From Trichocoleus sp. FACHB-46 (lineage in GTDB: Bacteria; Cyanobacteriota; Cyanobacteriia; FACHB-46): a stretch of DNA of 64,000 nucleotides. The notes below the pieces were generated by a model that searched no databases, was not told the origin of the DNA, and worked only from the letters and a program-made list of their open reading frames with translations. Every line of letters starts with the position of its first letter. Position 1 is the first letter of the stretch. Shown in pieces: positions 7,988-59,438 of this stretch. The translations under genes were made by a program, and so were the position numbers. The stretch covers positions 310,001 to 374,000 of the forward strand of contig NZ_JACJOD010000013.1 in assembly GCF_014695385.1 (NCBI RefSeq). The letters are read 5' to 3'.

Positions 7988-8495
7988 TGTGATTTTGGCT
8001 TACAGGTAGCTGGAGTTGTCCCCTAGCGATCGCACTGGCTCTGGTACTGATCGGCTCTCGGTTGCAACGACTAAAAAGCAAATTCACTTCATGCGGTTTC
8101 AGTGGGGGAGCAATCACGCTGAAGTGGCTTTCAGAGGCCGAGGCAAATAGACGCTATGAGGGTCGCGATCGCGCTAGAGGTCTAGAGCGATTCCAAAACT
8201 TTTTACACTTGGAAAATCTGGAATGTACTGAGAATAACAAATATTTATGTTTTTGATCCCACAGCTTTCACGAAATCATCTACCCGTAGGTAGAGATGAC
8301 TACCGCTTTATACAACATGCCAAAAATAAATTTAGTAGAAGATTATACTTAACCTCAAATAAGTCGTAGAGGCTCAACCAAAATAGGTTGACAAAAAATG
8401 AGTGGCGATCGCACTTGATTACAAAACACTGAGGTTTTCGTAGATTTGAGAACTCGGCGATCCGTCTCAGACCTAGGTGATACAATCTTTAACCA
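7988..8495. other. intergenic region between divergent protease and thiC genes
   Basis: About 500 bases separate the divergent protease gene and the thiC riboswitch. The short open frames here have no domain features and no good ribosome site, so I call no gene. The stretch must hold both promoters. A HIP1 octamer and a small imperfect hairpin near 8274-8300 (TCATCTACC against GGTAGAGATGA) are the only structures I see. Confidence 0.5.
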
Positions 8496-9966
<1,471 letters not shown>

Positions 9967-37071: not shown

Positions 37072-38661
37072 TCAGCTAGCGATCGCCTCAACATTCGCTG
37101 TACTAGCAGCCTTCAGAGTTTTTTGCGCCTCTGCTTCGGCGGTTAGGTATTCGGTGAGTTGCGCTTCGATTTCGTCACAGACGATTTGGCGATATTCGCT
37201 AAAGTGTTCATTGTGGGCACAGACGGTCAGGTAGCGATCCCAGACTTTGGGGTTGTGTTTGAAGATGTTCCAAAGGTTACGCCAGAACTGGAAGCGGGTA
37301 CTCCGAACCACGCCTTGCCGCCAGCAGACAGTAAGTAAGGCGCGAACATCAACCCAGGCTGGCATTTTACCAGGGGCTTTGAATTTGGGCGATCCCATGA
37401 TCAGATGGTGGCGGTACACGCGATCGAGGAATTTCTCAGGGTCGTAAAGCTCGGAAAAGGCGCGCATGTATTCGCGAGCAATTTCCTCTAGGGGGCGGGT
37501 GGGGACGAAGTTCATCAAGGTGGTTTGGTTGATGTTGCCTGCTTCGCCGCGTAAGCGCCCTTCTTTTTTCAGGCGGTGCCAAAGGCCAGTGTCGGGAAGG
37601 ACTTGCAACATGCTAAACAACGCGGTGGGGATCGCGGTTTTTTCGACGAATTGGACGATGCGATCGCCTGCACCCGGTTTTTCGTTGTCAAAGCCGATGA
37701 TGAAGCCTGCCATGACGCGCAAACCCACTTTGGTGATGGATTCCACGGCCTCGCTGAGAGAGTCGCGGGTGTTTTGAAACTTTTGGGTGAGGGCTAGGCT
37801 GTCTTCGTCTGGGGTTTCAATGCCTAAGAAGACGGCGGTGAAGTTGCACTCCACCATCAACTCCATCATTTCTGGGTCTTGGGCCAAGTCTACCGAAGCT
37901 TCGGTGAAGAAGGAGAAGGGATACTGGTGGTCTTCCATCCAGGTTTTTAATTCCTTGAGGAACAACTTCACGTTGCGCTTGTTGCCGATGAAGTTGTCGT
38001 CCACCATGAAGATGCTACGATCCCACCCGAGTTCGTAGAGGTAGTTCAGCTCGGCTAAGAGTTGTTGGGGAGCCTTAGTGCGGGGTTTGCGTCCGTAGAG
38101 GACAATGATGTCGCAGAATTCGCACTGGAATGGGCAACCGCGTGAGAACTGCACCGCCATGCTGTCGTAGGCGCTAAAGTCGAGCAGTTCGAAGCGGGGG
38201 ATGGGTGTGGTGGTAACGTCTGGCTTCACCCCATTGGAACGAAAGACTCCCTGGGTTTCGCCACGCGCGATCGCTTCAATAAAGAGCGGCAAAGTGATCT
38301 CGCCCTCATCCAAAATCATGTAGTCAGCCGCCTGGGCCTCTTCTGGTAGAGCGGTTGGGTAAGGGCCACCCACTGCCACAGGTTTACCTCGGCGCTTGGC
38401 CTCTTGAATTTGGGCCAAGAAATCTTCTTTCTGCACAATCATGGCAGAGAGAATTACCAAGTCTGCCCAAGCCCACTCGTCTTCTGTGACAGCGCGGACA
38501 TTGCGATCGACCAGTTTGAACTCCCACTCCTGAGGCAGAAGGGCCGCAACGGTGACTAAGCCCAGAGGTGGTAGTAAAACTTTGCGCTCGACCAGTTCTA
38601 GAGTTTTTTCAAATGACCAAAAGCTTTTAGGAAACAGGGGGTAGAGGAGTAAAACTCGCAT
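37072..38661 (-). CDS. B12-binding-domain radical SAM protein (DUF4070 type), copy 1
   Basis: The 529-residue protein has an N-terminal cobalamin-binding-like domain (residues 1-145) and then the radical SAM core, with Cys176, Cys180 and Cys183 in CPFQCEFC. The C-terminal part (about 380-510) is the DUF4070-like region. The DxHxxG base-off motif is not seen, as is usual for this class. Such enzymes methylate unactivated carbons, or make other radical changes, in secondary metabolites and lipids. It is a close paralogue of the gene upstream (38791), with the same start (MRVLLLYPLFP) and the same end (AIAS). The substrate is not known. Confidence 0.88.
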   Translation of the reverse strand: MRVLLLYPLFPKSFWSFEKTLELVERKVLLPPLGLVTVAALLPQEWEFKLVDRNVRAVTEDEWAWADLVILSAMIVQKEDFLAQIQEAKRRGKPVAVGGPYPTALPEEAQAADYMILDEGEITLPLFIEAIARGETQGVFRSNGVKPDVTTTPIPRFELLDFSAYDSMAVQFSRGCPFQCEFCDIIVLYGRKPRTKAPQQLLAELNYLYELGWDRSIFMVDDNFIGNKRNVKLFLKELKTWMEDHQYPFSFFTEASVDLAQDPEMMELMVECNFTAVFLGIETPDEDSLALTQKFQNTRDSLSEAVESITKVGLRVMAGFIIGFDNEKPGAGDRIVQFVEKTAIPTALFSMLQVLPDTGLWHRLKKEGRLRGEAGNINQTTLMNFVPTRPLEEIAREYMRAFSELYDPEKFLDRVYRHHLIMGSPKFKAPGKMPAWVDVRALLTVCWRQGVVRSTRFQFWRNLWNIFKHNPKVWDRYLTVCAHNEHFSEYRQIVCDEIEAQLTEYLTAEAEAQKTLKAASTANVEAIAS

Positions 38662-38790: not shown

Positions 38791-40395
38791 TTAGCTGGCG
38801 ATCGCGTTCATGTTAGCGGTGACGGCTGACTTTGCAGTTTGAGCCTGCGATTTCGCTTTAGTGGCTAAGTACTCTGCTAGTTGAGCTTCAATTTCGTCGC
38901 GAACTGTTTGGCGATACTCCAGGAAGTGCTCACTCAAAGCACAATTGCTCATATAAGGCACAAAGACGCTGGGGTTATGGCGCAGAATCGCAAAGAGCTG
39001 CCGCCAAAACTGCCAACGGGTACTTCGCTTAATGCCCTGCCGCCAGAAAATGGTGAAAACAGCCCGGAGTTCCACCAGTTCCAACATCCGAAATGGCACC
39101 TTGTGCGGCGATGGCTTTTGCTGAATGAAATTGCGATAAACCCGTGACAGATAACGGCTGGGTTCGTACAGCTCCCAAAAACAGCTCAGGTACTCACGCG
39201 CCAACTCTTCTACCGGACGGGTGGGGATAAAGTTGGTCAGCGCCATCTGGTGGCCCTGCGTTTCTTTGTTTGCCTCTAGCATCCGACCTTCTTTTTCTAG
39301 TCGGTTCCAGAGTGCCGTGTTGGGCAGTGCCTGGAGTAAACCAAACATCGCCTTGGGAATCGAGGTAGCTTCAACAAAATCGATGATGCGTTGACCCGCT
39401 CCTGGTTTCTCGCCATCGAAGCCCAGGATAAAGCCAGCCATCACATTCAGGCCCGCTCGATTAATCGTTTGCACCGACTCCACTAACGAGGTGCGGGTGT
39501 TTTGAAATTTGTGAGTCAGCGCCAAACTATCTGTATCAGGAGTTTCAATACCAATAAACACAGAACCAAAGTTGGCAGCGATCATCAAATCCAGCAGTTC
39601 TTGATCTTGGGCCAGATCAATCGAAGCTTCGGTAGCGAGGCGGAAGGGATAGTTGTGAGCTGCCATCCAGGAGCCGAGTTCACGTAGCAACAGCTTGACA
39701 TTACGCTTGTTGCCAATGAAGTTGTCATCGACCATAAAGATCGATCGCCGCCAGCCTAGGTCATAAAGGGTTTGCACTTCAGCAATGAGCTGAGCTGGAG
39801 TTTTGGTGCGAGGCTTCCGCCCATAAAGCACAATAATGTCGCAAAACTCGCACTGGAACGGGCAACCGCGCGAAAACTGCACCGACATCTCGTTATAAGC
39901 CTTAAAATCTAGCAAGTCGTAGCGCGGAATTGGCGAAGTGGTAACGTCTGGTTTCACTTCCCCGGCCCGGAGGACGCCAGAAGTTTTGCCTTGAGCGATC
40001 GCCTCAACCAGCATGGGAAGCGTAATTTCACCCTCATCCAATACCAAGAAATCAGCTCCAGCTTCCTGAGCTGCATCTGGGACAGAGGTGACATAAGGGC
40101 CACCCACTGCAACTAACTTGCCACGTTGCTTAGCCTGCTGAATCAGATGCAACATATCTGGCTTTTGGACAATCATGCCAGAGATAATCACCAACTCTGC
40201 CCAATCCCAGTCAGCTTCCGTCTCCAGCCGCACATTACGATCCACTAGGCGAAACTCCCACTCTTGAGGCAGGATCGCAGCAACCGTAATCATTCCCAGA
40301 GGAGGGAGCGAAACCTTGCGCCCGATCAGTTCTAGAGCCTTATCAAAAGACCAAAACGACCGAGGAAAAAGGGGGTAGAGAAGTAAAACTCGCAT
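38791..40395 (-). CDS. B12-binding-domain radical SAM protein (DUF4070 type), copy 2
   Basis: The 534-residue paralogue of the downstream gene has the same domain order, with the iron-sulfur Cys at 178, 182 and 185. The two proteins are similar along the whole length, with long shared blocks such as GEITLP, VQFSRGCPFQCEFCDI and DDNFIGNKRNVKL. The copies differ at many positions, so the duplication is not recent. Both end in Ala-Ile-Ala-Ser coded over a HIP1 octamer. The 129-base gap between them is free of genes. The substrate is unknown. Confidence 0.88.
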   Translation of the reverse strand: MRVLLLYPLFPRSFWSFDKALELIGRKVSLPPLGMITVAAILPQEWEFRLVDRNVRLETEADWDWAELVIISGMIVQKPDMLHLIQQAKQRGKLVAVGGPYVTSVPDAAQEAGADFLVLDEGEITLPMLVEAIAQGKTSGVLRAGEVKPDVTTSPIPRYDLLDFKAYNEMSVQFSRGCPFQCEFCDIIVLYGRKPRTKTPAQLIAEVQTLYDLGWRRSIFMVDDNFIGNKRNVKLLLRELGSWMAAHNYPFRLATEASIDLAQDQELLDLMIAANFGSVFIGIETPDTDSLALTHKFQNTRTSLVESVQTINRAGLNVMAGFILGFDGEKPGAGQRIIDFVEATSIPKAMFGLLQALPNTALWNRLEKEGRMLEANKETQGHQMALTNFIPTRPVEELAREYLSCFWELYEPSRYLSRVYRNFIQQKPSPHKVPFRMLELVELRAVFTIFWRQGIKRSTRWQFWRQLFAILRHNPSVFVPYMSNCALSEHFLEYRQTVRDEIEAQLAEYLATKAKSQAQTAKSAVTANMNAIAS

Positions 40396-40841
40396 TAATT
40401 GTTAGCCTCTTATCTAAATGACGGCCTGTTCTCAGATATATTGATATGTCTATCTATCCTGAAAACTCTCACGATAAAAGCTTTCAGTCAATGAACAACG
40501 ATTGACTGAATCAACTCGACGCGAAACAAGCCAATCCTCGCGATAAAAAGTGTATTCCTTCGACCAAAGATCAAGGAACTTCCTATATCACTTGTACTGG
40601 AGTTTAACAGACGCAACTCAAAAACGTATGCTTTGAGCGATTCCAGGAGCAGCAAGTAGCACTAAAGACCAAGGAATTAGCTGTAGCAAGAGAAAAGCCA
40701 AAGTATCGAAACACCCACCCTCAGATTCTTCTGGAGGGAGTCTGAGGGACGCAGCCGTCCCTCAGCGGGGGTTTGGGGGCGAGTGCCCCCAAGGGTTCGG
40801 ATTTCCCAAAGATGTTGATTCAGCGAAGTTTGAAAGAGTAG
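40396..40841. other. intergenic region with a structured repeat
   Basis: About 446 bases between the radical SAM copy 2 gene and the oxidoreductase. No gene is seen. The right part contains the dispersed structured repeat described separately (40708-40800). The rest is A+T-richer with no clear hairpins. Confidence 0.6.
40708..40800 (+). repeat. dispersed structured repeat, copy A
   Basis: About 93 bases starting GAAACACCCACC and ending AAGGGTTCGG. Two hairpins are present: GAGGGACG/CGTCCCTC around CAGC, and TTGGGGGC/GCCCCCAA around GAGT. The inverse copy lies at 58999-59092. Most differences between copies are in loops, or keep the pairing. Confidence 0.8.
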
Positions 40842-58887: not shown

Positions 58888-59438
58888 AATGGCACCTCAC
58901 CGGGTCGGGTTATCTCTAGGCTAGATGGTGGGGTGAGGTTTGTGGGATGAAGGGTTGCTGACGAAGCAAGCGAGCTAAATCTTAGTGACACACTTGAGAA
59001 CCAAGCCCTTGAGGGCACCTGCCCTCAAACTCCCGCTGAGGGACGGTTGCGTCCCCAGACCCCCTCCAACCGAATTTGACTGTGAGTGTTTCAATTCTTC
59101 TGTTCTTTTTCATCCTTCATCCCTTCTGTCTCGTCACCCTCTTAGAGCAAAAGAAAAATGAGAGACCTGTTTACAAATTCAATACAGGAACCTTAATTTC
59201 TCAGTTCTGTCTCTTGGATGGGAATAGGACTGATCTAGAGGAAGAGTCGAGGGCTATAGCTGCTACAGTACATTGCAGTTCAAGCAAATAGCGGAGCTGA
59301 AGTACGGAGATCCCCTCTACCTTAGTGCTCCTGAAAAGCAGCTGTTTCTTGTATAATTCAGCCATCAATTCTGAAAAATACTTTTCAATACTTAATATTT
59401 TTCTTCACATCCTTTAACAAAAATTCGTAAAAACCGTT
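58888..59438. other. intergenic region with the second copy of the structured repeat
   Basis: About 550 bases between the MBL/ferredoxin gene and the DUF2949 gene. The left part contains the dispersed repeat copy B (58999-59092). The right part (59093-59400) is A+T-rich with no gene that I can support and probably holds the DUF2949 promoter. Confidence 0.6.
58999..59092 (-). repeat. dispersed structured repeat, copy B
   Basis: Read on the minus strand this is the relative of 40708-40800: it starts GAAACACTCACAG and ends CAAGGGCTTGGTT. The second hairpin reads TTGAGGGC/GCCCTCAA here, where copy A has TTGGGGGC/GCCCCCAA, so a G-C pair became A-T with pairing kept. Confidence 0.8.

Follow-up and report, generated by a model that had tools for sequence, protein, structure and literature searches.

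Matched three-base changes in a dispersed intergenic repeat of a cyanobacterial genus carry the signature of tandem purine-motif intrastrand DNA triplexes

In this study, we analyzed a dispersed repeat with two copies in a 64,000-nucleotide stretch (hereafter the window; contig C13:310001-374000) of the 6.56 Mb genome of Trichocoleus sp. FACHB-46. Judging from how its copies have changed, this element carries the signature of a purine-motif intrastrand DNA triplex, with two class I units in tandem. The third-strand base, the stem purine and the stem pyrimidine switch jointly between G.G-C and A.A-T, and such matched changes of three bases are what would be seen if a DNA triple helix, and not a mere hairpin, were being preserved by evolution. 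The whole explanation, which we consider probable, is that the element is an old intergenic repeat in which a double triplex of the purine-rich strand, folded as single-stranded DNA, is under selection, that the fold acts as a road-block or platform, and that the repeats serve as recombination sites.

The original prediction was of a 93-base element with an inverse copy at 58999-59092 that has most of its bases in common, and the within-window alignment bore this out, since copy A (40708-40800, + strand) and copy B (58999-59092, - strand) agree at 82% over 95 bp (E 1.7e-21). With up to three mismatches allowed, a 20-base core from hairpin 1 occurs twice in the window versus zero times expected (100 shuffles), and the limits of the element are at ~40705-40802 (+) and 58999-59098 (-), making it a repeat of ~98 bp. 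A genome-wide covariance search, which had been proposed together with the prediction, revealed that the family is not limited to two copies. With a covariance model of the two hairpins, at least 83 copies were identified in the same genome at E<=0.01 among 150 scored of 2061 first-look candidates, and more may exist because just those 150 were scored; a nucleotide search of this genome gave 40 places among the matches listed. The model identified 69 and 76 copies in two congeners at E<=1e-5. Outside the genus, matches were few and weak, with 13 genomes of a 59-genome sample having 1-19 each (best 1.2e-20).

The anatomy of the repeat was defined on an 86-column alignment of 221 copies, in which the window position of copy A is 40721 plus the column number. 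The order on the + strand is a tail (columns 9-13), a purine arm R'1 (14-19), a TCT turn (20-22), the stem-1 purine arm (23-30), the loop CA(A/G)C (31-34) and a pyrimidine arm (35-44), followed by C45, a second purine arm R'2 (46-50), a TTT turn (51-53), the stem-2 purine arm (54-59), a loop (60-63) and a pyrimidine arm (64-71). R'1 and R'2 do not complement the stem purine arms but mirror them around a TNT turn, so that each stem purine arm has a purine third strand with matched G.G-C or A.A-T triads. The complementary pyrimidine arm is on the same strand and the loops are short, as in a class I motif. Over all helices, 97.4% of cells are paired, with a covariation score of 0.158 compared to 0.103 +/- 0.003 in shuffled data.

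Copy A (40705-40802, +) is of the full-length type, starting with TCGAAACAC at its left and finishing with GGTTCGGATTT at its right, as determined by DNA and covariance searches of its own genome, and it has orthologous copies at the same intergenic site in both congeners. Its tail bases C-T-G (columns 10-12; 40731-40733, +) can pair with loop-1 bases 40752-40754 (columns 31-33). They are followed on the + strand by R'1, AGGGAG (40735-40740), hairpin 1, CTGAGGGACG-CAGC-CGTCCCTCAG (40742-40765), R'2, GGGGG (40767-40771), and hairpin 2, TTGGGGGC-GAGT-GCCCCCAA (40773-40792). Copy B (58999-59098, -; G000:C13:368998-369076) is from a subfamily with an A.A-T triad in hairpin 2, and its stem 1 is one G short. 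Its parts on the - strand are R'1, which reads AGGGGG in the sequence (59060-59065), hairpin 1, CTGGGGACG-CAAC-CGTCCCTCAG (59036-59058), R'2, which reads GGGAG and mirrors GAGGG (59030-59034), and hairpin 2, TTGAGGGC-AGGT-GCCCTCAA (59009-59028). Hence, both copies fold into two hairpins as had been described. A decayed remnant of copy B adjoins the orthologous left gene in genome G001. Full-length copies have TCGAAACAC at their left end, other copies start just before the tail, and both types end near CTCGGATTT; no terminal inverted repeats were seen in the element, whose ends diverge fastest. Purine-rich heptamer-like tracts (GAGTGAGGAGTGAG...), which resemble cyanobacterial short tandemly repeated repeats, are present at 59099-59145 and in the left flanks of many full-length copies. 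The hairpin 1 loop (columns 31-34) is inverted from CANC to GNTG in several copies (e.g., L228, L229 and L280), and the loop differs between orthologs at several sites, suggestive of cruciform or template-switch inversions.

The columns that mirror one another proved to be the most tightly coupled in the family. The top four of 741 polymorphic column pairs, based on 171 distinct copies, were 17-25 (phi 0.92) and 18-24 (0.92) between R'1 and stem 1, the tail-loop pair 10-33 (0.90), and 49-55 (0.88) between R'2 and stem 2, against a median |phi| of 0.09 over all pairs. The next were triad partners, 25-40 (0.81), 17-40 (0.74), 49-68 (0.71) and 55-68 (0.65), interleaved in the ranking with some neighbouring pairs from the variable ends. 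Counts in 158 distinct cores show which combinations the three bases take: GGC 128, AAT 18, GGT 9 and AGC 3 at columns 17, 25 and 40; GGT 123, AAT 25 and others 10 at columns 18, 24 and 41; and GGC 118, AAT 19, GGT 14, GAC 4 and others 3 at columns 49, 55 and 68. The same picture of the triads was obtained with one vote per orthologous site group. A G-C to A-T change in stem 2 with pairing kept, noted in the original prediction, is present (TTGGGGGC/GCCCCCAA in copy A versus TTGAGGGC/GCCCTCAA in copy B). It belongs to a single triple at 49/55/68, GGC in copy A and AAT in copy B, whose linked third change in the spacer purine tract (GGGGG versus GGGAG) had been missed. Within the genus, the tail-loop pair 10-33 alternates between T-A (53) and C-G (44), with six other combinations (n=103). 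Columns 17, 18, 24 and 25 are inside the 10-33 span and have |phi| <= 0.33 with column 10. As the coupled columns skip near-independent ones between them, tract-wise gene conversion alone does not account for the linkage. Bistable alternative hairpins were also considered and fail to explain 18-24, because the third strand is a mirror of the stem arm, not its complement.

Comparison of flanking sequences assigned the copies to 92 site groups (by either flank), 45 of which are common to all three species (40 by both flanks), including the site of copy A; the positions of the repeat are mostly inherited. This made it possible to follow changes at orthologous sites. Joint changes of columns 18 and 24 had occurred at 11 sites among the 70 clean ortholog groups, against two sites with a change of column 18 alone and none with a change of column 24 alone (Fisher 3.6e-11, the best of 1326 pairs), and co-change was also detected for 10-33 (p 4e-6) and 49-55 (p 4e-4). 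Divergence between orthologs was 0.041 and 0.036 in the third-strand arms, 0.033-0.059 in the stem arms, 0.107 and 0.193 in the loops and 0.26-0.31 at the element ends. Divergence is equally low in the third strand and in the stems, and both are thus under similar constraint.

The mirror idea came after the data from the genus, and a scan of 84,980 prokaryote species, each represented by one genome, served as its test. The pattern used, GGGGRGTNTGRGGGGN{3,10}CCCCYC, left all three bases of one triad free and matched at least 118 stretches. Organisms among the matches listed include Actinobacteria, Rhodobacteraceae, Bacteroidales, Rokubacteria, Chloroflexi, Spirochaetes, Firmicutes, Cyanobacteria, a Woesearchaeote and others. 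Triads among the matches listed were AAT 34, GAT 1, AGC 0, GGC 85 and GGT 3 (Fisher 3.7e-29, optimistic because some genomes supply several matches), with AAT 24, GAT 1, AGC 0, GGC 58 and GGT 1 in the first 80 loci, and the A.A-T form among the matches listed was drawn from many different organisms. Viral contigs gave AAT 19, GAT 0, AGC 0, GGC 38, GGT 4 and AAC 2 for the class I pattern (p 1.6e-15, optimistic for the same reason). The pattern was weaker for class II in viral contigs (AAT 3, GAT 1, AGC 4 from one locus, GGC 77, GGT 15), and when the free triad was shifted a step farther from the turn, the class I pattern matched two viral stretches, too few for use. A class-wide pattern comparison of the loop-proximal sixth position detected no coupling, with third base A/C in 17/4 genera where the stem has A-T and in 17/5 where it has C-G; therefore, the outermost triad contact is unsupported. 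Where the first base past the pyrimidine arm is A, the turn base pairs with the second one (C-G 27, T-A 25, G-C 21, A-T 4; T-T 21, other 4). Tail-loop pairing outside the genus was not significant in the broad species set (38 versus 32.1 +/- 3.9 expected, p 0.07), and this pair is supported only within the genus.

Several further observations were made in these scans. In a cyanobacterial genome of 5.6 Mb (G087), a class I triplex motif has expanded to the extreme of 296 exact matches of AGGGGGTNTGGGGGCN{3,9}GCCCCC. Loci of Rhodobacteraceae such as L306, L328, L359 and L362 have a common leader, AAATATCCC, directly 5' of the third strand, which suggests a separate repeat family. Five viral or proviral contig loci (L432, L438, L466, L471 and L476) have class I motifs as two adjacent units.

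The fold that we propose for this old, high-copy and vertically inherited intergenic repeat would be formed by its purine-rich strand, which as single-stranded DNA could adopt two tandem class I purine-motif intrastrand triplexes. The Watson-Crick stem of each hairpin would take the adjacent 5' purine tract into its major groove (R'-TNT-R-loop-Y; G.G-C and A.A-T triads). In unit 1, the tail past the third strand would also pair with the hairpin loop. The covariation shows that selection keeps the triads matched. The strand most likely folds while it is transiently single-stranded, as may occur during replication, transcription or negative supercoiling, and the fold may act at the DNA level as a road-block, or as a binding or protein platform, at gene ends, with homologous copies doubling as recombination sites. 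Purine-motif triplexes, which consist of G.G-C and A.A-T triads with an antiparallel third strand (PMC4666352), are reported, in that paper's citation of Semerad and Maher (1994), not to form in RNA. Mismatches on the + strand of the repeat are G.T versus A.C in a ratio of 78:37 excluding pair 24-41, which is itself mostly G.T, an excess that argues for the purine strand as the folded one, although mutational strand bias could contribute. The folded molecule is probably DNA, with single-stranded DNA favoured, because of the reported lack of purine-motif triplexes in RNA and the + strand preference for G.T. The same triads on the opposite strand are C+.G-C and U.A-U, which makes an RNA of that strand still conceivable. 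In vitro, a stable triplex that melts at ~70-82 C is formed by a related G/C-rich motif as DNA; for the E. coli relative, DMS footprinting revealed no stable triplex in vivo, and it was without promoter or terminator effect (PMC4666352).

Of 218 classified copies of the repeat, only six are not intergenic, and these overlap a crude ORF call. Their neighbours, which were ORFs called by length alone, are more often convergent (67) than divergent (22), and the stop codon of a gene faces the right end in 140 of the 212 copies with called neighbours (median gap 18 bp). No intrinsic terminator (a G+C-rich hairpin plus a U-run) or promoter was found at the element in either window copy, and no orientation bias by chromosome half was detected in G001 (p 0.49). 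Comparison between genomes identified four cases (L028, L048, L183 and L007/L005) in which flanks of different copies are joined, the left of one with the right of another. Both flanks were located for three lineage-specific copies, two of which are at synteny breaks, as is copy B, and a joined-flank search for lineage-specific copies found the flanks, with the sites rearranged or replaced, not cleanly empty. The repeats have probably acted as recombination sites, most sites being stable, as indicated by these exchanges of flanks between copies and by the copies at synteny breaks; this agrees with the reported instability of the E. coli motifs (PMC4666352). Elsewhere in the window, two tandem, similar radical-SAM-like proteins of 529 and 534 aa are encoded at 37072-38661 and 38791-40395 (-), with a related locus in G002:C64 (72% DNA identity), and a TPP riboswitch is present at 8490-8586 (+; 68.2 bits).

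The original interpretation, that structure is under selection as for an RNA or a palindromic mobile element, held in its first part, well beyond one compensatory change, but neither of the two readings attached to it is favoured. Were the repeat a non-autonomous mobile element of the REPIN or IS200/IS605 type, with the folded single strand as a transposase substrate and the structure kept for mobility, one would have an explanation for ~80 dispersed copies in both orientations, for the conserved folded strand and for sites present in one species only. We consider this unlikely, as about half of the site groups are common to the three species, no clean empty allele was seen at the single lineage-specific site that was examined completely, none of the three Y1 transposases (PF01797 matches) in the genome has a copy in its locus, and the motif class covers many phyla. 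Transcription of the C-rich strand, to give an RNA pyrimidine-motif triplex or a plain double hairpin after stop codons that stabilizes or regulates as a 3' UTR, would fit the many stop codons facing the right end, and its C+.G-C and U.A-U triads are possible in RNA (PMC4666352). However, G.T is preferred on the opposite strand, most copies would have an A.C mismatch at pair 24-41, a search of Rfam gave no family match, and the hairpins have no U-run after them. The RNA would also have four to five C+.G-C triads in a row, and such runs require protonation. Together with the three-base covariation of the purine-rich strand and the reported absence of purine-motif triplexes in RNA, this makes an RNA quite improbable.

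Neutral processes would offer an account in which gene conversion and hairpin-templated repair homogenize the copies and their stems and no triplex is selected. Subfamily changes common to related copies are consistent with this, as are the loop inversions (CANC to GNTG) at several sites, which are hairpin-type mutational events. Against it, templated repair yields reverse-complement matches, not mirror ones, the linkage skips the columns in between, and the same three-way coupling occurs in unrelated phyla and viral contigs, leaving a neutral origin very unlikely in our estimation. The four G-tracts of about five within 60 nt could instead form a G-quadruplex to which the hairpins are incidental. 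We give this little credence, since a quadruplex cannot account for the coupling of third-strand and stem purines to the pyrimidine arm (17-40, 49-68), and A.A-T triads also occur in single-unit motifs that have just two G-tracts.

In kind, the element is known, being a potential intrastrand triplex element. The motifs described as PIT elements, BoxC and TMECO in the accounts cited here (Hoyne et al., 2000, 2002; Holder et al., 2015, PMC4666352) are likewise dispersed intergenic G/C-rich repeats in which one strand can form a purine-motif triplex, with 3-nt turns and G.G-C and A.A-T triads, and they are reported to be abundant in cyanobacteria and linked with genome variability (PMC4666352). 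TMECO is a class II motif (Y-R-R') of proteobacteria with one unit and 9-nt arms, whereas the element here is class I (R'-R-Y), with two tandem units in a ~98-bp repeat and a tail-loop pair. It is not TMECO or BoxC proper, whose class II order is 5'-CCCTCNCCCN3-6GGGNGAGGGN3GGGNGAGGG (PMC4666352). The E. coli motif sites are reported to be unstable (PMC4666352), while about half of the site groups here are common to three species. The repeat resembles REP/BIME and REPIN elements in being short, high-copy, intergenic, palindromic and commoner near gene 3' ends, but no REP-type tag was identified in it and no Y1 transposase adjoins any copy here. To our knowledge, a mirror third strand is not among REP features. 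With H-DNA it has in common a homopurine mirror repeat and purine-motif triads; it differs by having a separate pyrimidine arm on the same strand, which allows the entire triplex to be built from a single strand. Three features appear to be new, namely the arrangement of class I units in tandem, the tail-loop pairing within the genus and, above all, the three-base covariation. No prior covariation analysis was found in the literature searched, which covered few subscription papers, or in PMC4666352.

Intramolecular DNA triplexes have long raised the question of whether they occur in cells and are of importance there. A wider proposal, which in our assessment is evenly balanced, is that selection maintains DNA triplexes across bacteria and archaea, with class I motifs folding as single-stranded DNA in living cells, where a general cellular process reads them. 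On this proposal, the three-base covariation would amount to the first proof from evolution of a purine-motif DNA triplex, and a cyanobacterial genus would carry a double-triplex version at ~80 mostly stable sites. The family supplies natural matched sets of G.G-C, A.A-T and mismatched triads at orthologous sites, and the three-base pattern may be used as a search criterion that tells real triplex elements from G-rich noise. Matched triple changes in separate lineages of the genus, and in many phyla, indicate that the geometry of the triplex has consequences that are visible to evolution.
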